Assembly (NCBI GenBank): GCA_021730945.1
Contig: JAKFYH010000033.1
Coordinates: forward strand, 1 to 49,360
Length of the DNA stretch: 49,360 nucleotides
From: Acidobacteriota bacterium
GTDB taxonomy: Bacteria; Acidobacteriota; Vicinamibacteria; Vicinamibacterales; UBA2999
Direction of reading: 5' to 3'
Position numbers and translations under genes: made by a program. Below the pieces are notes generated by a model. That model had not been told where the DNA came from, searched no databases, and saw nothing but the letters and a program-made list of their open reading frames with translations. Positions 1,877-42,435 of this stretch are shown in pieces (positions within the stretch are counted from its first letter, which is position 1; each line of letters starts with the position of its first letter).

Positions 1877-4032
1877 AGAGCTACCTCGAAGTCACGGTGT
1901 TTGTCTCACCGGGGACCAACGGTTCTTACACTGTCAGGGTCGAGTCGCGCCACGGCGGCGTCGCGGGCTATCCGCTGATGCTGCCCTTCGCGTTAGGCGA
2001 CCTGGCCGGAATCGTGACGGGTGTCGCCGCGTCGGTGCGAGAGATTGGCGAGGCGGCGACCCCGGCGACGAATCCCGAGCGCGGCCTGCCGGTTCCTGCT
2101 GGCCGCCGTGCCAGCATCGCCACCAGCGGACGAGACTTCGGCGCCGAGATGTTCGAGGCGCTCTTCAAGGGGCCCGGACTCGAAGTGCTGGCGGCCACCG
2201 TCAGCCGGGCCAAATCCCTGACGAACGACGGCATCGACACCGGGGTACGTATTCGGATCTCGATGGACCTCGAGAACCACGGGATGGTGGAGGTGGCCGG
2301 CCTGCCGTGGGAACTGATCAGCCGCAAGGGTGATGACCCGCTGGTGGTCTCGGACAAGACCCCGCTGGTCCGCTCGTTCGACGTGCTGGAGGCCAGGGAC
2401 TCGGTGCCGCTGAAGGGGGCGCTCCGCATCCTGGTGGTGATGTCAAATCCAAGAGGCACGCCGCCCCTGAATCTCGAAACGGAACGCACGCGAATCGAGC
2501 AGAGTTGGCGGGCCTTGGGCATGACGGTGGACTTCGCGCGACCGGTCCGGGCCGACCTTAGAAAGCAGTTGGGGGCCGAGGTATATCACGTGGTCCATTT
2601 CATGGGCCATGGCGACTTCGACCTGACGAAGGGCGGCATGCTGCTGCTGGAGAAGAACGACGGCGAGCCCGATCCGATCAGCGGGAAAGAGTTCGCCGTG
2701 ATGCTGCAAGACGAACCCCTGCGACTCGTTTATCTGAATGCGTGTAAGACCGGCATGGCCGGGATGACCGGCACCGGGAGCCCCGTGCACCCGTTCGCCG
2801 GCGTCGCCTCGGCGTTAATCAAGAAGGGCGTGCCAGCGGTCGTGGCGATGCAGTTTCCGATCTCAGACGAGGCCGCGATTGCGTTTGCGACGACCTTCTA
2901 CGAGCGCATCGCCCAGAGATTCCCGGTGGAGGCGGCCGTCGCGCAGGCCCGCAGCGCCCTCTACCAGGACGGACACTCGGAGTGGGTGACACCGGTCCTC
3001 TACCTACGTTCCAGCGACGGCGTACTGTTCGACCCATCGGCGGAGCCGGCCCACGCCGCTGCGGCCGGTGTCGCGTCGGCTGCAGCCGCGCCGGCTGCGA
3101 CCACTTCCGGCGCCGCGGATCTCTGGGAACCAGGAGCGGACGACGCAGCGCGCATCTTCCTCGCCGCGTCGTGCAAGGAATTGAAGTCGCTTCAGCGAAC
3201 GCTGGGCGCCGAGCTCAGGGCCCTGGGCCACCGGGTGGTGGACTCGGTACCGCCGCCCGATGATGCCGCGGGGCACGAGACCACCGTGCGCGCCCTCGCC
3301 GCGCGCGCGGACTTGTGCGTCCACTTGATGGGCGACACGCCGGGAAAGAGCATCGGCGAGCCCGGCGCCCTGCGGACCTACCCGGTCGAGCAGTTGCGCA
3401 TCGCGCTCGAGAGTGCGCGTGCGCAACTGGTGATCATTCCAGATGTCGACCTCGACACCATCGAAGATGCCGAATACCAGCAGTACCTGGTGTCGCTCAA
3501 GACCCGGACGTACGACGCCGGGCGATTCGAGTTGGTGCAGACCAGCAAGCTCGAAGTGAAGGCAGCCATCACAGCCAGCCTGCAGCGACAGAAGGACGCA
3601 CGGTCTGCGGCGGCGACACGGAGCTCCGCGGGCGACCCGGTACTGACGGCGTTTGTGGACGCGCACGAGCTCGATCAGGACGTTGCCAACGAGCTGGTGA
3701 CCTTTCTGAGCACGCGTGACGTCGAGGCCTTCTTCCAAACCAGCGACGGCTCGACCGATGACGCGCTCAGGCAGCTTGGTGACAACATCAAGAACTACCC
3801 GCTCTACATCCTGGTCACGGGAAAAGCCGACAAGGAATTCGTCACCAACCACGCGAATAAGGCGCGGACGTCTGCCAACGCCTCGCGCCGGCAAATCCTG
3901 ATCGCCAGGTACGAGAGCGGTGACGACCCGGCCATCGACCTGTCGCGGCTGAAAATTACCAGTGCGTTAAAGCGGCCCACGCCGAACCCCGTCGACGCGA
4001 TGTTCAAGACCCCGGCCGAGCCCAAATCATGA
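1873..4032 (+). CDS. CHAT-domain cysteine protease with two C-terminal TIR-like modules
   Basis: A 719-aa protein. The GTG at 1873 is preferred because it overlaps the preceding remnant's stop as GTGA; in-frame upstream codons give non-protein-like sequence. Residues ~100-400 form a CHAT (caspase-HetF-associated with TPRs) domain. Its catalytic dyad is visible as HFMGHG (His ~246) and YLNACKTG (Cys ~291). The N-terminal ~90 residues hold a beta-rich segment and a hydrophobic stretch (LMLPFALGDLAGIV). After an Ala-rich linker come two Rossmann-like modules, at ~427-560 (begins RIFLAASCKEL) and ~588-690 (begins DPVLTAFVDAHEL). They resemble TIR/DUF4062-type folds seen in conflict proteins; whether they hydrolyse NAD is not shown. 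The stop overlaps the next gene's ATG (ATGA). Likely role: a protease effector released or activated by the downstream NTPase. Confidence 0.85.
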   Translation: MKSYLEVTVFVSPGTNGSYTVRVESRHGGVAGYPLMLPFALGDLAGIVTGVAASVREIGEAATPATNPERGLPVPAGRRASIATSGRDFGAEMFEALFKGPGLEVLAATVSRAKSLTNDGIDTGVRIRISMDLENHGMVEVAGLPWELISRKGDDPLVVSDKTPLVRSFDVLEARDSVPLKGALRILVVMSNPRGTPPLNLETERTRIEQSWRALGMTVDFARPVRADLRKQLGAEVYHVVHFMGHGDFDLTKGGMLLLEKNDGEPDPISGKEFAVMLQDEPLRLVYLNACKTGMAGMTGTGSPVHPFAGVASALIKKGVPAVVAMQFPISDEAAIAFATTFYERIAQRFPVEAAVAQARSALYQDGHSEWVTPVLYLRSSDGVLFDPSAEPAHAAAAGVASAAAAPAATTSGAADLWEPGADDAARIFLAASCKELKSLQRTLGAELRALGHRVVDSVPPPDDAAGHETTVRALAARADLCVHLMGDTPGKSIGEPGALRTYPVEQLRIALESARAQLVIIPDVDLDTIEDAEYQQYLVSLKTRTYDAGRFELVQTSKLEVKAAITASLQRQKDARSAAATRSSAGDPVLTAFVDAHELDQDVANELVTFLSTRDVEAFFQTSDGSTDDALRQLGDNIKNYPLYILVTGKADKEFVTNHANKARTSANASRRQILIARYESGDDPAIDLSRLKITSALKRPTPNPVDAMFKTPAEPKS

Positions 4033-7000
4033 GCGGCGACGGCCTGCGCGCCAACCCCTACATCGGCCTGCGCCCGTTCCGTGACGACGACGTCCTGTAT
4101 TTCTACGGCCGTGATCAGCAGACGGCCGAACTACTGGCGATTCTCCGCGAGCATCGTTTTCTGGCCGTGGTGGGCAGTTCCGGTAGCGGCAAGTCGTCAC
4201 TGGTGCGCGCGGGACTGCTGCCGAGCCTGCTGGGCGGCTTCCTGGTGCAGGATCGCGACCGCTGGCGCACCGTGCAGATCAAGCCCGGCGATGCGCCGAT
4301 CGGCAATCTCGCGGCCGGACTCGTCGAGGCGATGGGCCGCCCGGCCGGCGAAGCGGCCGAACTTGAGCGCGACATCCGCGAGAACCACACCGACGCCGTC
4401 GTCACCTTTCTTACAACGCATCTTGGGGACCGGAGCAACCTGTTCCTGCTGGTCGACCAGTTCGAGGAGATCTTCGCTTTTCGTGGTCGCGATGAGGAAG
4501 CGGATCCCAATGCCACCGACCTGAAACGACGGAAAAAGCGCATTCGGCGCCGCGCCGAAGCGGCCGATTTCGTGGACCTGCTGCTCGGCCTGGCCGAGCG
4601 GCGGGAGTTGCCGATCTACGTGTCGCTGACGATGCGCACGGATTTCCTGGGGGAGTGCGACCTCTTCTACGGGTTGCCCGAGGCGCTCAATCGCGGCCGC
4701 TACCTGGTTCCGCGACTGACGCGCGAGCAATTGCGCGATGCGATTGAGTGCCCGGTGCTGCTGCTGAATGCGGAGATGGCGGCCCCGCTCCTGGATCACG
4801 TGCTCAACGAATTGGGCGCCCGCGGCGATCGGCTCCCGGTGCTGCAACACGCGCTCCTGCGGACGTGGGACGCCTGGGACAAGGCTGGCCGCATCGGCCC
4901 GATCGGTCTGGCGGACTATCACGCGGCGGGTGGCATCGACGGCGCGCTCAATCAGGATGCGGAGGGCGCGCTCAAAGGCCTCGACGTCGCCGTGACGGCG
5001 CGCATCTTCAAGCGGCTGACCAATACCGATGCGGGCCTGCGCAGTGTGCGGAGTCCCGCCCGCATCAGCGAGCTGATGGCGGCGTCTGGTGCCGACCGCG
5101 CCACTGTCAGCGCGATCGTCGAGAGATTCGCGCGCGATGGCCGCAGCTTTGTGCACCTGTCCGACGACGGGCAGCCGGGCGACCCGCGCGTGGACATTTC
5201 ACACGAGAGCCTGATCCGTCAGTGGCAGTCGCTGAAGACCTGGGTGGAGGAAGAGCGTGTCTCGCGTGACCACTACCAGGACTTGTTGAAGGCCACCAAG
5301 AGGGCGCGTGGCGCGGCGGCGCTGCTGCAGGACCCCGATTTGAAGATCGCCTTCGACTGGCGCGAACGGGAGCACCCATCGAGCGGATGGGCCCAGCGCT
5401 ACTCAAATGCGGATGGCGACTTCGCGAGCGCCACTGACTACCTCGACGAGAGCGTGCGTGCGCGCTCCATAGAGTTGGCGGAGACGGAACTGTCCCGACG
5501 CTGGAGGCGGGTCGGTCCCCCCGTGGCCATGCTGCTCGTCGCCGCCCTGCTGGGGGCCGGCTTCTACCTGGAATGGCACGAACGGTTGTCGAGCTGGGCA
5601 ATGGGCCGGTTTGGTGTGGACCAGGTCTCGGTAGCTGAAGGGACGGTGGGGATTAGGGGCCTCACGTGGACGACCGACGATCATCGGGCGACGATGACCT
5701 GGGACCAGGCGGACAGGTACTGTCAGGCGCTCAAGATTCCGACACAGGCCGGTGGCCCGGCCTTCGACCACTGGCGCCTGCCGACCCAGAGTGAACTGCT
5801 CGACCTCTACGCGCCAACCGAGGGCAGCGATTTCCTGGGCCGGAAGCTGCTACCGGCGTTTCAACCGGGCGTGAACGCCGACTACCTGTGGAGTTCGGAC
5901 GCCGCCGACCCCTCGTCCAGCACCTCGGACCGGATCGCCGCCGACTTTAGTCGCCAACAGCTGGTGCCGCTGCCACGGGATACGGCCCAGGCGGCGAGCG
6001 CGCTGTGCGTGAACGCAGCTGCCGTGTTTTCCGTGGGCCAACCGACGACGGGGCGAGAGGCCCAGTTAGCCAAGAGAGCCAAGGCCACGGCTGAGGCCCA
6101 GCGGAAACGAGACTTGGTGGTGGGGCTCGCCGGTACCCTGATTCTGGCGCTGCTGTTGACCGTTTACTACCTGCTGGCCACCGGCGGCAGATGGCTGCAA
6201 CGGAAGCTGATCTTCAACCACGTCGTGCATCGCTTCATGGCGTTCGGCGGGCGAAGACAAGTCGAGGTGCCGATCGACGCCGGCCAACGCGTGGATGCGG
6301 TGACGGCCCACGCTACGGCCTATGCCTCGACCGTCCGACGCGTGTTCGGTTGGGGGATCGACGTCGCGGTCTTTCTGCCGGTGGTGGTCGCGATGCTGGT
6401 CGCCATTCTCCAGGGCGATCCTCGTGTCTCGGTCACTCAAGCGGACGGCACGCCGATCGCAGGCGCCTTCCAATACTGGGATGACAAAGCGCTGAAGCTG
6501 ACGCTGACAACTGACGACGGCAGGACGCTGACACTGGACACCGAAGCGCCTCCCCAGCCGGAATTCCTGGGTTGGTCTGGTGGAGACGCGGTCAAGACGA
6601 CCTTGCCGTCAGGGGCGTCGGTAAATGCGACGTCGTTCTTGACGCGTGTCGTCAAGGTGGCTGAGACCGACGACAATCAGGCCAAGACCGGCGTGGAGTG
6701 GTACGGCACCGTCGACGGGACTCAGGCCCGCGATGGCAAGATGTTGTTGAATTACACCTTGGACCACTGGCAGGCGACCAGGGACGCGTGGGCCCAGGAT
6801 CTGGCGTGGCAGTTGGGCCCCGATCAGGCCAAGGTCCGCCAACAGCTCGACAAATGGATCGCGGACAACCCACCGCCGGGCAAGGCTGGCGGGCAGCGCG
6901 AGTTTCCGTCCAGGGGCGCCGTCGTCGACGAGTTCGTTGAGCCGCCGAGTGACGCCGCCGCGATCGTCGTGATCATGGCCAGCCTGATACTCGCCTGGCT

Positions 7001-7889
7001 GTACGAGGTGCTCCAGATTGCTTCGACGCGACAGGCCACGATCGGCATGCGGCTGGCTGGCGTGATGCGGACCGATCTGCATGGCGGGCGGCTCACCTTC
7101 GCACGGGCCAGCGCGTTGTATGTCTACCGGCTTGGCTCGTACCTCACCTTTGGTCTCGGCTTTCTGGTACAGCCGGTGACGAAGAAGAAGCAGACCCTGC
7201 ACGATCGTCTGGCCGGTAGCGTCGTGCTTCGACAACTGAAACCTGATGCTCCCCGGGTTGTCGCGCCGGTGACGCGGAAGGCCGGCATGCTCAACCGGCG
7301 GTTTGCCGCGGTGTGCGTGTTGCTGCTCATGTCCGTCGTCGTCTTTGTTGGCGTGTGGGACGCGGAGCGGTTGGAGAGCGTAGGGGCACCGGGTGAAGAG
7401 CCGACGACCTGGACCGACCCTTGGTCAGACTTAGGCATCCTGTTGACGGTTGGCGAGCTGTCGTTGAACGGTCAGCGCCTGTCTGCGCCCTCGCCATTCA
7501 CCACCCTCGAGGAAATGCAGCCGTCGCTCGTGGTTGCACCTGGCGCGCCGATCGCGGCATTGCTCAAGGCTACTGTCGCCATCACACCGCCGGCCCGTTG
7601 CCATGCAGCGAGTGGTTGTCCCGTTGGATTCGCCATTGGCTACGATTCGGTCAGCGAGTTCATTTCCACGACCAGCCATTGGTCGGGCTGCGACCTGCCG
7701 GCACTCTTCGTGTCCGACCCGCAGGCGGGCAAACCGTTTCCGGTTGAGGCCTCGCTGAGCGCTCCGACGGAGCCAGGCCGGTACCTGGTGTGGTTTGATT
7801 TCATCAAGCTTGGTTCATGCGGAGAGGGCGGGCTTCCGCCCGAGGGGTCGTTATCGAGGCTCGACATGACGATGATCGAGGTGAAGTAG
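4029..7889 (+). CDS. nSTAND1-type NTPase fused to an Lcl/DUF1566-like domain and a split RDD-like membrane domain
   Basis: A 1286-aa protein starting at the ATG of an ATGA overlap with the CHAT gene. The N-terminus NPYIGLRPFRDDD is the hallmark of the novel STAND NTPase 1 family. The P-loop GSSGSGKS lies at 49-56 and the Walker B/sensor LFLLVDQFEE at 138-147. STAND winged-helix and helical regions run to ~490. A first membrane helix lies at ~499-516. Next is an extracytoplasmic C-type-lectin-like/Lcl (DUF1566) domain at ~540-670, with MTWDQADRYC, HWRLPTQSELLDLY and YLWSSD. A second helix lies at ~695-717. An RDD-like membrane domain follows, whose first helix (~770-795) is separated by ~170 soluble residues from its second half (~980-1075; TIGMRLAGV, LHDRLAGSVV). 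One more helix (~1091-1110) and a Cys-containing extracytoplasmic tail end the protein. Probably an envelope-anchored sensor/switch that gates the CHAT protease. Confidence 0.85.
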   Translation: MSGDGLRANPYIGLRPFRDDDVLYFYGRDQQTAELLAILREHRFLAVVGSSGSGKSSLVRAGLLPSLLGGFLVQDRDRWRTVQIKPGDAPIGNLAAGLVEAMGRPAGEAAELERDIRENHTDAVVTFLTTHLGDRSNLFLLVDQFEEIFAFRGRDEEADPNATDLKRRKKRIRRRAEAADFVDLLLGLAERRELPIYVSLTMRTDFLGECDLFYGLPEALNRGRYLVPRLTREQLRDAIECPVLLLNAEMAAPLLDHVLNELGARGDRLPVLQHALLRTWDAWDKAGRIGPIGLADYHAAGGIDGALNQDAEGALKGLDVAVTARIFKRLTNTDAGLRSVRSPARISELMAASGADRATVSAIVERFARDGRSFVHLSDDGQPGDPRVDISHESLIRQWQSLKTWVEEERVSRDHYQDLLKATKRARGAAALLQDPDLKIAFDWREREHPSSGWAQRYSNADGDFASATDYLDESVRARSIELAETELSRRWRRVGPPVAMLLVAALLGAGFYLEWHERLSSWAMGRFGVDQVSVAEGTVGIRGLTWTTDDHRATMTWDQADRYCQALKIPTQAGGPAFDHWRLPTQSELLDLYAPTEGSDFLGRKLLPAFQPGVNADYLWSSDAADPSSSTSDRIAADFSRQQLVPLPRDTAQAASALCVNAAAVFSVGQPTTGREAQLAKRAKATAEAQRKRDLVVGLAGTLILALLLTVYYLLATGGRWLQRKLIFNHVVHRFMAFGGRRQVEVPIDAGQRVDAVTAHATAYASTVRRVFGWGIDVAVFLPVVVAMLVAILQGDPRVSVTQADGTPIAGAFQYWDDKALKLTLTTDDGRTLTLDTEAPPQPEFLGWSGGDAVKTTLPSGASVNATSFLTRVVKVAETDDNQAKTGVEWYGTVDGTQARDGKMLLNYTLDHWQATRDAWAQDLAWQLGPDQAKVRQQLDKWIADNPPPGKAGGQREFPSRGAVVDEFVEPPSDAAAIVVIMASLILAWLYEVLQIASTRQATIGMRLAGVMRTDLHGGRLTFARASALYVYRLGSYLTFGLGFLVQPVTKKKQTLHDRLAGSVVLRQLKPDAPRVVAPVTRKAGMLNRRFAAVCVLLLMSVVVFVGVWDAERLESVGAPGEEPTTWTDPWSDLGILLTVGELSLNGQRLSAPSPFTTLEEMQPSLVVAPGAPIAALLKATVAITPPARCHAASGCPVGFAIGYDSVSEFISTTSHWSGCDLPALFVSDPQAGKPFPVEASLSAPTEPGRYLVWFDFIKLGSCGEGGLPPEGSLSRLDMTMIEVK

Positions 7890-7890
7890 C

Positions 7891-7970
7891 GTGACCCTAA
7901 CACCCGGTAACCGCCTGGGCGCCTACGACATCACGGCACCGCTCGGCGAGGGTGGGATGGGTCAGGTCTA
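7891..7970 (+). pseudogene. 5' fragment of a Hanks-type Ser/Thr protein kinase gene
   Basis: A GTG one base after the nSTAND1 stop opens a frame reading TPGNRLGAYDITAPLGEGG then MGQVY. This is the N-lobe start and Gly-rich loop of bacterial Ser/Thr kinases, which normally continues RARDxxLGRxVALK. The kinase pattern stops at codon 27 and is replaced by unrelated sequence, so the kinase is lost. The frame stays open beyond this point but encodes only the reverse complement of another truncated gene. The 1-nt spacing implies that the intact operon was CHAT - nSTAND1 - kinase. Confidence 0.75.
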
Positions 7971-8072
7971 CATGCGCCTGGCGATCGCCAGGCGTCCGGC
8001 TCCCGACTTCGTTCGAAGCACGGCCGCCATGTCTTCGTCGAGGACCTCGATGCGAGGGTCGGGAACCGGCAA
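7968..8072 (-). pseudogene. Truncated small gene, short conserved acidobacterial family
   Basis: Read on the minus strand from a TTG at 8072: MPVPDPRIEVLDEDMAAVLR and onward to GRLAIARRM, then TAG. This resembles the N-terminal half of a ~70-aa protein family (pattern IEVxDxxMAxxLRxKTxxERLxIAxxM...) that I recall from acidobacteria and other environmental bacteria. It stops at the point where the family would continue. The truncation point coincides with the broken kinase on the other strand, so both were cut by the same rearrangement. Function unknown; the family match is from memory. Confidence 0.45.
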
Positions 8073-8089
8073 GGTGCGTGAACGGGATG

Positions 8090-9004
8090 CTACTGCTGCC
8101 GCGAGGCGGCGAGCGCGGCGTCGGCCGCGTCGGCCTGTTCGTGCGCGTGATAGGAGCTGCGGACGAGCGGACCCGATTCAACATGGGCGAAGCCCAGGCC
8201 GAGGGCAATCTGCTTGAGTTCGCGGAACTCATCCGGGGTGTAATACCGCGTCATCACCGCATGGTCGCTTGACGGCCGCAGGTATTGCCCCAGTGTGAGA
8301 ATCGAGACGCCGACGTCGCGCAGGTCCTTGAACACCTGGACAACTTCGTCCTTCTCCTCGCCGAGTCCCATCATCATGCCGGTCTTGGTCGGGATCCCCG
8401 GCGCATACTTGCGCGAGCGGTCCAGTAATTCCAGCAGGCGGGAATACTTGCCGCCGGAGCGGACCGCGCGATACAGGCGGGGGACTGTTTCCGTATTGTG
8501 ATTCAGCACATCAGGACGGGCGTCGAGCACCGTCCGCAGTGACGACTCTTCGCCCTTGAAATCCGGGATCAGCACTTCGACGCGGCAGTCCGGAAGACGC
8601 CGCTTGATGTCGCGGATCGTCTGGGCATAAATCCCGGCGCCGCAGTCCGCGAGGTCGTCGCGATCGACGGACGTGATCACCGCGTACTTCAGTCCCATCT
8701 TCTCGACGGCTTCGCCGACGCGCCGCGGTTCGTCGATGTCGAGCGTGGCCGGCCGGCCGTGCGCGACCGCGCAGTAGGTGCAGGCGCGGGTGCAGATGTC
8801 GCCCAGAATCATGAAGGTCGCCGTGCCGTGGTGCCAGCACTCGCCGATGTTGGGGCAGTGGGCGTCTTCGCAGACCGTATTGAGCTTGAGCTCGCGCATG
8901 ATGCCGCGCAGCCGCAGGTAGTTCTCCGACCCGGGGGCACGAACCTTCAGCCACTCCGGCTTGGGCTCACGGGGATTGATGAACTGCAGGGGGGCTTCGA
9001 TCAT
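8090..9004 (-). CDS. lipA: Lipoyl synthase (radical SAM)
   Basis: Inserts two sulfurs into octanoyl groups on lipoyl domains (pyruvate and 2-oxoglutarate dehydrogenases, glycine cleavage H protein), in the cytoplasm. Family landmarks are all visible: the auxiliary-cluster motif VCEDAHCPNIGECW, the radical-SAM motif CTRACTYC, and the C-terminal RSSYHA whose serine ligates the auxiliary cluster. The ATG at 9004 (MIEAPLQFINP) gives 304 aa, a normal LipA size. An in-frame ATG at 9034 would add ten poorly conserved residues. TACACT (9018-9013) upstream is a possible -10. No lipB or dehydrogenase gene lies nearby. The gene is intact although it sits beside a rearrangement point downstream and the repeat-bounded cassette upstream. 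Confidence 0.96.
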   Translation of the reverse strand: MIEAPLQFINPREPKPEWLKVRAPGSENYLRLRGIMRELKLNTVCEDAHCPNIGECWHHGTATFMILGDICTRACTYCAVAHGRPATLDIDEPRRVGEAVEKMGLKYAVITSVDRDDLADCGAGIYAQTIRDIKRRLPDCRVEVLIPDFKGEESSLRTVLDARPDVLNHNTETVPRLYRAVRSGGKYSRLLELLDRSRKYAPGIPTKTGMMMGLGEEKDEVVQVFKDLRDVGVSILTLGQYLRPSSDHAVMTRYYTPDEFRELKQIALGLGFAHVESGPLVRSSYHAHEQADAADAALAASRQQ

Positions 9005-9039
9005 CTCTGGTCCAGTGTAACTGATGTCGCACATTTGAT

Positions 9040-9123
9040 GAGCTCTTGATGTGGTGATGTGGGGATCGATGTCGTGAGCTTATGAGCGGGTGATCTGTTG
9101 AGCGGGGTTTCGATCTGGTGATC
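9040..9123 (+). repeat. Left arm of an 84-bp imperfect inverted repeat
   Basis: Starts GAGCTCTTGA and is rich in GTGATC-like words. Compared by hand with the reverse complement of 9631-9714, it matches at 60 of 84 positions without gaps, with the outermost 10 bp identical. It encloses the four-helix-bundle gene. Confidence 0.7.
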
Positions 9124-9256
9124 TGGATTGGGTGATTGAGGCAAGAACTGCCACGGCGGGAGCCGCGACAGGTGGCTGATTTTGCGACCTGGCGAACCCT
9201 CAAACGGGAGATTGCCGGCAAATTCTCGCGGCACGAGTGATGCACCTCCTGCCCCT

Positions 9257-9616
9257 ATGGAACGACCAGAATTGGAACGACGGAGTCTCGCGTTCGCGAC
9301 CAATGTAATGGCGCTGTGCGCAGAGGTCAGGAAGCTGCCGACCGGGCGAACGCCGGCCGACCAACTGCTGGACGCGGCCACATCGGTCGGGGCAAACTAC
9401 AGGGCATCGTCCCGGGCGCGTTCGCGGGCGGAGTTTGTCGCGAAGCTGGGGATCGTCGCCGAGGAGATCGACGAGTCAGTCTACTGGCTGGAACTCATGC
9501 TGCGTGCCGGGCTCGGCGATCCCAGTGTCATCGGGCGCTTGTTGCCAGAGGCCAAAGAGCTGCGGGCGATCTTCGCCGCGTCGTACCGAACGGCCCGCCT
9601 GGGCAAGAAGCGGTGA
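9257..9616 (+). CDS. Four-helix-bundle protein (S23/IVP-like)
   Basis: A 119-aa helical protein of the family related to the 23S rRNA intervening-sequence protein. The pattern ELERRSLAFATNVMALC, ADQLLDAATSVGANYRASS, KLGIVAEEIDESVYWLELM and the final LRAIFAASYRTAR give the four expected amphipathic helices and the conserved GANYxEA/ASRARS-type turn. The ATG at 9257 is preferred over an in-frame ATG at 9182, which would add a Pro/Gly-rich non-family stretch. No clear Shine-Dalgarno sequence is present. The biochemical role of the family is not established. The gene is the only one inside a 675-bp unit bounded by inverted repeats, which suggests it travels as a cassette. Confidence 0.85.
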   Translation: MERPELERRSLAFATNVMALCAEVRKLPTGRTPADQLLDAATSVGANYRASSRARSRAEFVAKLGIVAEEIDESVYWLELMLRAGLGDPSVIGRLLPEAKELRAIFAASYRTARLGKKR

Positions 9617-9630
9617 GGTCACCCGGCTCA

Positions 9631-9714
9631 GGCCACCAGATCAAACGATCGTTCACAAGATCACAAGTTCACCACGTCAAGACCTCGATCACTAGATCAC
9701 CAGCTCAAGAGCTC
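9631..9714 (-). repeat. Right arm of the 84-bp imperfect inverted repeat
   Basis: Ends TCAAGAGCTC, the exact reverse complement of the left arm's outer 10 bp. Composed of GATCAC/TTCAC words. It stops six bases before the start codon of the UPF0173 gene at 9720. Confidence 0.7.
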
Positions 9715-9719
9715 ACCAC

Positions 9720-10415
9720 ATGCAGAATCTATCTATTACCTGGCTCGGCCATTCGTCGTTTCGCGTTCGAACCCCGGGAGGCAAGGAAATCCTGTTCGAC
9801 CCCTGGTACACCGGCAACCCGTCGTTTCCCGAAGCGGCGCGGCCGACCCAGGCCGACTTGATCCTGGTGTCGCACGGCCACTTCGACCACATTACCGACG
9901 CCGCCGCGTTGGCGAAATCGACCGGCGCCACGGTGGTGGCGATCTGGGAGATCTATCGCTACCTGGCATCGAAAGGCGTGCAGAACCTCGAGCCCATGAA
10001 CAAGGGCGGCACCATTCAGGTGCAGGGACTGCGCATCACCATGACCGACGCCCGCCACAGCAGCAGCTTCGAGGACAACGGTGTCGTCTACCTCGGTGCC
10101 GCCGCCGGCTTCGTGATCACGCTTGAGAACGGGCAGGTCATCTACTTCGCCGGCGACACCTCGCTTTTTGGCGACATGAAGTTGATCGCCGAACTCTACA
10201 AGCCCGACATTGCCTTCCTGCCGATTGGCGACCGCTTCACCATGGGACCCGACACCGCGGCCATCGCCGCGCGGTGGCTGGGCGTAAAACTTGTGGTGCC
10301 CATGCACTGCGCGACCTTTCCCCAATTGACCGGCACGCCCGAGCAGCTCGAGCAGCACCTGGCGGGGTCGGGCATCGACGTGCTGAAGCTGCAGCCGGGC
10401 GAGACGGCCGAATGA
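9720..10415 (+). CDS. UPF0173 metal-dependent hydrolase (metallo-beta-lactamase fold)
   Basis: A 231-aa cytoplasmic protein of the YtkL/UPF0173 type. The metal-binding motif SHGHFDH lies at ~51-57. A second histidine is in DARHSSS (~102), the aspartate in FAGDTSLF (~143) and the last histidine in VPMHCATF (~195), as the fold requires. Length is normal. The substrate is unknown for the family; hydrolase activity is inferred from the fold. The ATG at 9720 lies directly after the inverted-repeat arm and has no clear ribosome site. The stop overlaps the next gene's ATG (ATGA at 10412-10415), so the downstream binding protein is co-translated. Confidence 0.92.
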   Translation: MQNLSITWLGHSSFRVRTPGGKEILFDPWYTGNPSFPEAARPTQADLILVSHGHFDHITDAAALAKSTGATVVAIWEIYRYLASKGVQNLEPMNKGGTIQVQGLRITMTDARHSSSFEDNGVVYLGAAAGFVITLENGQVIYFAGDTSLFGDMKLIAELYKPDIAFLPIGDRFTMGPDTAAIAARWLGVKLVVPMHCATFPQLTGTPEQLEQHLAGSGIDVLKLQPGETAE

Positions 10416-11158
10416 GCCGGATCATCACAGCGCTTCTGGCCGTCGTCCTGGTTGTCGGCCTGGCCCGTGTCGCTCCGGCTCAGCAGCCGGCTCCTGCGAT
10501 CAAGACCATCGAACCCGGCGTCTTGACGGTTGCCGTCACGACGATCACGCCGACCGGCCCCTACGACTCCCAGCAGTGGATCCGGCGCTACGTCGAACGG
10601 TTCGCCGCCGAACATCGCCTCACCATCCGGTGGGTGGTCGTGCCGTTTGACCAGTCGTGGTGGCGGGCGAGCCGCAGCGAAGTCGACCTGGTGGCCACCA
10701 ACGTCGCCAGCTTTCCGGATCGGCGCAGCCCGGGCGCGACCTTTTCGGCGCCGTTCATGTATGAGCGGCGGGCTTTGCGCATCCGCCCGCCGGATCGCGG
10801 GCGCTATGCGCATATCGACGACTTCATCGGGCGCACTGTCGGCGTGGTCCAGGGCATGGCCGCCGAGCGCGATGTGCGCCGCCGCGCCAAGCCAGAAGTG
10901 GGCGTGGTCACCACGTCCAGTTTCGCCGAACTCTACGAGCGATTCGGCAAGGGCGAGCTCGATGCCATCGCCGAAGCCGAATACTATGCGCTCGATGGTG
11001 CGGTGATCCCGTCTCACGGAGATGATGTCGTGCTGGTGGACTTGCACGACCTGACTCCGGGACAACGCGAAGAGTCGGTGTTCGTGGTGTCAGACGCCAG
11101 CACGGGACTGCTCGCCGCGATTAACCGTTTCATCGCCGCGACGCGTTTCCCGCTGTGA
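10412..11158 (+). CDS. Periplasmic solute-binding protein, family 3-like
   Basis: A 248-aa exported protein. The signal peptide is residues ~1-24 (ends APAQQP). The body has the extracellular family-3 solute-binding layout: GVLTVAVTT near the start, FSAPFMYERRALRI in the middle, IGRTVGVVQGMAAE, and FGKGELDAIAEAEYYA. The ATG is fixed by the ATGA overlap with the preceding hydrolase. Its own stop overlaps the MFS gene's GTG (GTGA at 11155-11158). No ABC permease is adjacent, so it may instead serve as a sensor or lytic-transglycosylase-like accessory. The ligand cannot be read from the sequence. Confidence 0.8.
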   Translation: MSRIITALLAVVLVVGLARVAPAQQPAPAIKTIEPGVLTVAVTTITPTGPYDSQQWIRRYVERFAAEHRLTIRWVVVPFDQSWWRASRSEVDLVATNVASFPDRRSPGATFSAPFMYERRALRIRPPDRGRYAHIDDFIGRTVGVVQGMAAERDVRRRAKPEVGVVTTSSFAELYERFGKGELDAIAEAEYYALDGAVIPSHGDDVVLVDLHDLTPGQREESVFVVSDASTGLLAAINRFIAATRFPL

Positions 11159-16710: not shown

Positions 16711-16844
16711 GCCGCAGATTTCATGCGGGCCAGGGCCGCAGATGACACCGTGCAGCCAGGGCCGCAGATGACACCGTGCAGCCAGGGCCGCAGATGACAC
16801 AGATAACGCAGATAACGCAGATCTAAGGGCAAGGGGCAAGGCGC
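16711..16844. repeat. boxC-boxB gap: 26-bp tandem repeat plus 9-bp repeats
   Basis: Two full copies of a 26-bp unit (16730-16755 and 16756-16781) and most of a third carry the word GGGCCGCAGATGACAC. They run into a short AGATAACGC repeat (16800-16821). An older copy of GGCCGCAGAT lies at 16711-16720. The same words recur at 41414-41615. No open frame or terminator is evident. Confidence 0.8.
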
Positions 16845-28744: not shown

Positions 28745-28826
28745 CTGAAACTGAAACTCCAAACTGAAACTCCAAACTGAAACTCCAAACTGAAACTCCA
28801 AACTGAAACTCCAAACTGAAACTGCC
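28743..28826. repeat. 13-bp tandem repeat, about 5-6 copies
   Basis: The unit AAACTGAAACTCC repeats from 28761 to 28825 in five copies, the last varied, with partial copies on the left. It contains CTGAAACTC, a 9-bp word also present in the putative operator at 27960-27968. It lies between the regulator gene and the ferredoxin gene. Confidence 0.9.
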
Positions 28827-28868
28827 AACTTTCAACTCTAGAACTTTCAACTATCGAGGATCGCCCCC

Positions 28869-41413: not shown

Positions 41414-41615
41414 GGGCCCGACACAGATGGACGGGGCCACAGATGACGCAGATGACACAGACTGGCGGGATTTCGGACGGGGGCCGCAGATGACGCAGAT
41501 GGCGCAGATGACGCAGATGACGCAGATCAGGTCCATCCAATCAGGCCAATTTCACTCAAACCGATCTGTGTCATCTGCGTCATCTGTGGCCCTGGAGTAA
41601 GGGCCCATCTGTGTC
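41414..41615. repeat. Large inverted-repeat element built of 9-bp words
   Basis: A perfect 28-bp inverted repeat joins 41434-41461 with 41565-41592. An outer 11-bp pair (GACACAGATGG at 41420-41430 and its complement at 41605-41615) extends it. The loop holds further GATGACGCA copies (41484-41528). The right end overlaps the stop codon of the EEP gene. Related words occur at 16711-16822. Confidence 0.85.
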
Positions 41616-42365: not shown

Positions 42366-42435
42366 GGGATCAGGGATCAGGGATCAGGGATCAGGGATCA
42401 GGGATCAGGGATCAGGGATCAGGGATCAGGGATCC
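42366..42435. repeat. 7-bp tandem repeat GGGATCA, nine copies plus one variant
   Basis: GGGATCA is repeated exactly from 42366 to 42428 and closes with GGGATCC, which makes the palindrome AGGGATCCCT. It lies between the divergent start codons at 42348 and 42451. Confidence 0.95.

Follow-up and report, generated by a model that had tools for sequence, protein, structure and literature searches.

Closest in layout to the locus described here, going by the portion of PMC3116915 that deals with them, are the REPINs and their RAYT partners: REPINs are inverted doublets dispersed in extragenic space and linked to the gene of a partner protein. The intervening sequence (IVS) of the Coxiella 23S rRNA is described, in the pertinent passages of PMC4990558, as carrying an S23 open reading frame (ORF), a terminal stem and, depending on strain, two or three tandem GACAGAT heptamers ahead of the ORF, and as being cut by RNase III; IVS mobility was proposed earlier, as cited in those passages. 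Heptamer repeats of the form GGGNATC occur in Xanthomonas and Nostoc, with 70 convergent inverted pairs in X. campestris, and the excerpted text of PMC4692102, which contains neither S23 nor four helix, describes them as not generally associated with mobile elements. For TAACTGA heptamers, the excerpt of PMC4679880 mentions transmission by some mobile element merely as a possibility, and a passage of PMC10053308 states that PF05635 resembles Avd. Among the matches listed in a search of open-licence PMC full texts, taken in excerpt, none connects genes for S23 or GxxExxY with short-repeat arrays in inverted orientation.

We analysed a window of 49,360 nt from an Acidobacteriota bacterium (contig JAKFYH010000033.1; genome G000 below), in which an S23 gene lies outside the 23S rRNA gene, where an rRNA IVS would be located, and instead between lipA and a UPF0173 gene (Table 1). 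The original prediction, made from the sequence, was of a single S23-like gene enclosed by inverted 84-bp arms, and both parts were borne out. Positions 9040-9123 and the reverse complement of 9631-9714 are identical at 60 of 84 positions, with the outer 10 (GAGCTCTTGA) exact, and ungapped extension lengthens the arms to 104 nt at 71% identity (9032-9135 and 9619-9722). The best inverted alignment, 9005-9256 against 9617-9719, scores 84, far above 2,000 Markov shuffles (mean 22, maximum 49). The enclosed ORF belongs to the S23 family by profile score (TIGR02436, 64.3 bits against a cut-off of 24; PF05635, 43.4 bits against a cut-off of 33.8). Read from their sequence, the arms are a degenerate array of TGATCTGG-like 8-mers, and a fixed terminal repeat is ruled out; the arms of three further loci (L078, L081 and L082) resemble them in the same orientation. 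The S23 frame is open from TTG 9182, and the start is probably ATG 9257 rather than 9182, because the 119-aa version aligns from its first residue with the same-site relatives L129, L130, L131 and L133. Similarly, lipA probably starts at 9004 and not 9034, judging by the gene caller and by related gap sequences compared by eye. An Rfam scan of 7800-10600 returned nothing at the gathering threshold. Elsewhere in the window, the arms of the pair at 41434..41592 best resemble those of the sole GxxExxY gene found in this genome (G000:C7:74724), and 4029-7889 holds a 1,286-aa ORF with, by eye, an ATPase-like N-terminal part and membrane segments.

Table 1. Positions of the features in the window and the basis on which each was assigned
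Feature	Position	Strand	Basis
lipA (lipoyl synthase), flanking	8090..9004	-	profile, gene caller
Left arm, degenerate array of TGATCTGG/TGATGTGG 8-mers reading inward	9032..9135	+	alignment
S23 / 23S rRNA-intervening-sequence protein, four-helix bundle, 119 aa (probable start)	9257..9616	+	profiles, structure model
Right arm, left-arm array inverted; extends to next gene's start codon	9619..9722	-	alignment
UPF0173-type metal-dependent hydrolase (PRK00685), flanking	9720..10415	+	profile
Solo array of GCAGATGAC/CGCAGATAA words	16729..16822	+	best match: GxxExxY arms of L256 (own genome)
Solo array AAACTGAAACTCC	28748..28828	-	best match: arms of L016, another S23 gene of the window's genome
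Gene-less inverted pair, 9-nt words such as CACAGATGA	41434-41461 / 41565-41592		matches GxxExxY arms
Solo array GGGATCA x 9.9	42366..42434	+	best match: S23 arms of L046 (G005); weaker: L011 (own genome)

To our knowledge, no function has been assigned to S23/IVP proteins, whose structures have been solved since 2006, and we know of no nuclease fold among them; in a published structure the protein is reportedly a homopentamer ring. The AlphaFold model of the window's S23 protein has four helices (mean pLDDT 87.6), with which Foldseek ranked the S23 structures 2rld and 2gsc first, and it is a four-helix bundle with TM-scores of 0.79-0.86 to 2rld chains, normalised to the query. Avd of a diversity-generating retroelement (8ub7 chain E) was a weaker match, similar in fold by TM-score (0.70/0.75) but with an E-value of 0.18; in contrast to diversity-generating retroelements, no template/variable repeat was seen in the window gap. 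Across S23 pairs with finite dS, dN/dS was 0.05-0.11 in four of five and 0.24 in the orthologous pair L015/L078, values from which we conclude that the protein is maintained. A small palindrome, GGCATGAGCCATGC, lies between the left arm and the S23 start codon in L061 and L064 and is a possible regulatory site.

The stretch 9005-9730 folds strongly (z -5.65), as would be anticipated if the arms formed an RNA stem around the S23 message that was processed by RNase III as in rRNA IVSs, with copies kept for regulation; the Coxiella IVS, with its terminal stem, tandem heptamers, S23 ORF and RNase III cut (PMC4990558, in the passages cited above), would be a precedent for such an RNA device. The reverse strand folds strongly too, however (z -4.39), and gene-less copies of the arms are dispersed. 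Selection on the stem at the RNA level was considered and rejected: though both strands fold well, mismatches had no strand asymmetry, with 172 GU-tolerated versus 175 GU-intolerant transitions, whereas selection on a coding-strand stem predicts an excess of the former. We therefore consider it very improbable that the arms are an RNA device of this kind.

Arms of this kind are widespread around S23 genes. Six of the eight S23 genes in the window's genome have strong inverted pairs, each with another word (GTTTCAG, GGTGCCG, an 18-mer, GGGATCC, a long GC-rich word that also forms direct repeats, and the window's 8-mer), while the seventh has marginal GGAGTCA arms and the eighth none. Taking as score the best inverted alignment between 500-nt flanks, we found values of at least 50 in 69 of 95 S23 loci from this genome and relatives of the same order (median 66; 98 loci from among the matches listed, three dropped for short flanks), with direct repeats reaching 50 in 8/95. 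Inverted scores of at least 50 were obtained at 10/740 uniform places, 0/66 small genes and 1/30 PIN genes; the uniform and small-gene controls came from G000, G005 and G008, all of one genus, and the S23 loci from at least 30 genomes. Across named genomes of many phyla, arms at z>4 were present in 57 of 78 S23 loci versus 5 of 143 control places of the same loci, this set being the best 80 of 584 matches to one peptide pattern, less two with short flanks. Word length was mostly 7 (30/69 order-level and 37/56 named loci), and arms were G-rich when read inward in 60/69 and 54/56, respectively, polarity having been counted for 56 of the 57 named armed loci. Counting against an element reading, 26/95 order-level and 21/78 named loci fell below the arm thresholds, and all four plasmid S23 genes inspected sit in operon-like gene rows (34 plasmid records had an S23 match, about 28 of them cyanobacterial by name). 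No match to S23 was found in the phage sequences searched. In Bizionia (L211) and Faecalibacter (L215), the repeats flanking S23 are long and direct instead of inverted (scores 251 and 174, respectively); the genes there may have been duplicated, or the layout may be a different one.

The type of arm follows the S23 clade. Among 2,346 pairs of the 69 armed loci, arm similarity reached 50 in 25, every one with a protein identity of at least 0.4, and in none of the 2,021 pairs below that identity; none of the 2,346 pairs reached it in the opposite orientation to the gene. By tblastx, the outer flanks of 20 of these 25 pairs are without homology; four of the five pairs with outer-flank homology represent the same site. 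Two S23 copies within G002, for instance, encode proteins that are 94% identical (dN/dS 0.05) and share ~560 bp between unrelated flanks. As far as such comparisons of sequence go, the S23 gene and its arms turn up together, as one unit, between flanks that are unrelated. Left-right arm identity within a locus is in most cases about that between orthologues and is higher in G008, which is suggestive only of concerted evolution of the two arms.

These data bear on another possibility, that the arms delimit a conventional or REP-like element for which some ordinary transposase, such as a Y1/RAYT enzyme, is supplied by a gene at another place, with S23 as cargo. Hairpin ends, gene-less copies and the lack of target-site duplication do resemble REPINs, as these are presented in part of PMC3116915. 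Cargo would not, however, be expected to co-vary with the ends, and a single transposase would be hard put to act on arm words that differ from one S23 clade to the next; we consider this explanation distinctly unlikely.

Orthologous sites differ in whether they hold a cassette. Comparing the lipA-UPF0173 gap across relatives, as had been suggested with the original prediction, revealed that the gene is not universal there: in G003 and G007 the two genes are 48 nt apart, with nothing between them, and an S23 gene lies upstream of UPF0173 in G000, G001, G002, G008 and G013, the last from another genus. The G004 counterpart has the stop codon of a TetR-like gene abutting the UPF0173 start, where G008 has the S23 cassette. 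The same gap in G005 (L127, C4) contains no S23 but a different gene-less inverted pair, of CCACGGAAGCACAGAA / TTCTGTG type by eye, as though elements had landed in this gap more than once. At a second site, between VWA-like and M20-peptidase-like genes (named by eye), G002 has a cassette and G007 and G008 are empty; G004 has a pair without a gene, and in G005 there is a solo array built of similar words. Flanking homology at the L082 site is short.

Inverted pairs lacking a gene were sought in stretches of five genomes of the genus (1.25 Mb), picked to avoid known S23 genes, although one stretch (L333) contained one. We found 34 such pairs, with spacers of at most 147 nt. When compared with 69 S23 and 20 GxxExxY arm sets, 24 of the 34 matched S23 or GxxExxY arms and 10 fitted none. 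For 13 of the 24, the best arms were those of their own genome, compared with a mean of 2.7, and never 13, in 2,000 label shuffles; the remaining 11 were better fitted by another genome's arms than by any sampled from their own genome, which counts against the association. Surveying 1.2 Mb of S23-rich genomes yielded 33 inverted pairs, 22 of them tandem-armed; in two relatives that had no match to S23 or GxxExxY, and that are also more distant, 0.4 Mb yielded three pairs, not one of them with tandem arms. S23 arms in Rhodanobacter sp. DHB23 are of the word GGGATTC, and a pattern search located 13 distinct sites of inverted GGGATTC pairs in that genome; none was found in three genomes with other S23 arms, nor for the reversed control pattern.

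The largest gene-less family, with ends AGTTGAAAGTT / AACTTTCAACT, gave at least 87 match pieces in G002, at least 84 in G000 and at least 57 in G005, against 0-3 in the other six genomes; these counts are lower bounds on match pieces, with palindromes counted on both strands, so that the sites are fewer. An S23 protein at least 72% identical to that of the gene with AGTTGAAAGTT / AACTTTCAACT-type arms is found in exactly G002, G000 and G005; relatives at 65% and 52% identity are present in G001, where the word is related but not the same, and in G004, respectively. Counting against an element reading, the G002 S23 gene expected to own this family has an array downstream only. Gene-less pairs of the window's own arm family occur at G000:C62:4149-4352 and in G001, G002, G006 and G008. 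Copies in G006 are an exception to the correlation with S23, no S23 gene of that clade having been fetched from this genome. A weak pair of this type lies between tRNA-Val and tRNA-Asp genes (G000:C5:163022-163151, L008). Other matches to the window's arm family had no inverted pair at the place of the match. The original prediction had allowed that the repeats might prove to be GTGATC low-complexity sequence shared by unrelated gaps: such sequence does occur in other gaps, but in several of these, though not in every one, it takes the form of a gene-less inverted pair with arms of the window's type, which is what non-autonomous copies would look like.

At 28 of 40 AGTTGAAAGTT / AACTTTCAACT-family sites examined, an inverted pair exceeded the threshold. 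We looked for target-site duplications in 28 sharp-ended gene-less copies anchored at both ends (25 of those sites and three copies from earlier stretches), a sister family of the window's, and found no exact duplication of at least 3 bp (shuffled mean 0.5). The idea of classical terminal inverted repeats with target-site duplication, also part of the original prediction, thus did not hold: the arms consist of tandem arrays, with a different word in different clades, and the 28 sister-family copies are without duplication. The element accordingly has neither the conserved terminal inverted repeat nor, in the sister family, the target-site duplication of a classical DDE insertion sequence or MITE. 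It is like a MITE in that gene-less copies have ends matching a gene-bearing copy in the same genome, and unlike one in the lack of duplication in these 28 copies and in that no transposase is known for S23 elements. The broader reading of the unit as a cassette or mobile element gained support from unrelated flanks, empty sites and dispersed gene-less copies. Some gene-less copies lie at the same site in different species, with lengths that change between orthologous copies; because of these shared sites, many are old, which counts against the element reading.

GxxExxY (PF13366) genes of the same genomes have the layout of S23 loci, their words being 9 nt long, for example CACAGAGAC and CACGAAGGA. 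Inverted scores of at least 50 were found in 14 of 27 loci and direct ones in 4 of 27 (30 loci, with two partial ones left out and one dropped for short flanks). At one GxxExxY locus, L238 (G029:C32), very strong direct repeats (score 421) lie beside inverted ones. Since GxxExxY is unrelated to S23 and has arms of the same build, the making of arrays is not unique to S23.

This second family is among the observations that would fit arms arising as by-products of replication slippage and template switching, with S23 and GxxExxY as passengers in tolerant gaps and without a role in spread. Solo arrays without an inverted partner exist, lengths vary between orthologous copies, one S23 gene has an array on a single side, and an unrelated protein has the same layout. 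Slippage would not, however, explain why the S23 clade sets the type and orientation of the arms, why arms and gene recur jointly in unrelated flanks, or why gene-less families resemble the arms of resident S23 genes and vary with the presence of S23. We consider a passenger role for S23 and GxxExxY unlikely, if the least so of the three alternatives weighed here.

Taken together, the S23 gene, the mirrored arrays and the scattered gene-less copies across bacteria point to an unrecognised family of mobile elements. We estimate a probability of roughly 0.6 that the window unit is a copy of a widespread REPIN/RAYT-like element that has inverted short-word arrays as its ends and S23 as its dedicated protein, its movement being deduced from the distribution of copies. 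Such an element would consist of a single S23 gene between two inverted arrays, with a word mostly of 7-9 nt but also of 13-18 nt, and would spread into intergenic gaps, giving rise to gene-less pairs with the same arms. The S23 ring may bind its own arm array as a single-stranded DNA or RNA hairpin and may thereby mobilise the arms both in cis and in trans, the part proposed for RAYTs with respect to REPINs. Because S23 has no nuclease fold that we know of and Avd, which it resembles in fold, has a reverse transcriptase as partner, a contribution in trans by host replication and repair or by a reverse transcriptase is plausible.

As with REPINs, the inverted doublets here are extragenic and go with a partner gene resident in the genome, S23 standing where REPINs have RAYT, although exceptions such as G006 exist. 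The REPIN partner, however, is a tyrosine transposase, whereas S23 is a four-helix bundle and the ends are made of short tandem words. The rRNA IVSs of Coxiella and Leptospira likewise have a lone S23 ORF within terminal inverted repeats and look like a special case of the S23 element; the elements here differ in that they are intergenic, have an array on either side, come with gene-less families and use words specific to the clade. Heptamer repeats share the 7-nt words, and an S23 locus of X. vasicola has GGGAATC-like arms. The cyanobacterial STRRs may also be linked to S23 arms, going by one locus, in Nodularia. A bolder proposal, to which we give somewhat less than even odds, is that S23 and, independently, GxxExxY would define a new class of mobile elements, as the proteins of elements that have no recognised transposase. 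The S23 ring would read its own array as a single-stranded hairpin of DNA or RNA, copying would proceed via template switching or with a host reverse transcriptase, and rRNA intervening sequences, the heptamer repeats of cyanobacteria and Xanthomonas, and other simple-repeat hairpins like them would be copies.

If S23/IVP proteins do belong to array-ended elements, the family would gain a testable role, and the erratic spread of S23 genes and of rRNA intervening sequences would be explained together. The arms alone would predict which dispersed repeats belong to which gene, many heptamer repeats that are now orphans would gain an owner, and GxxExxY would provide an independent second case.
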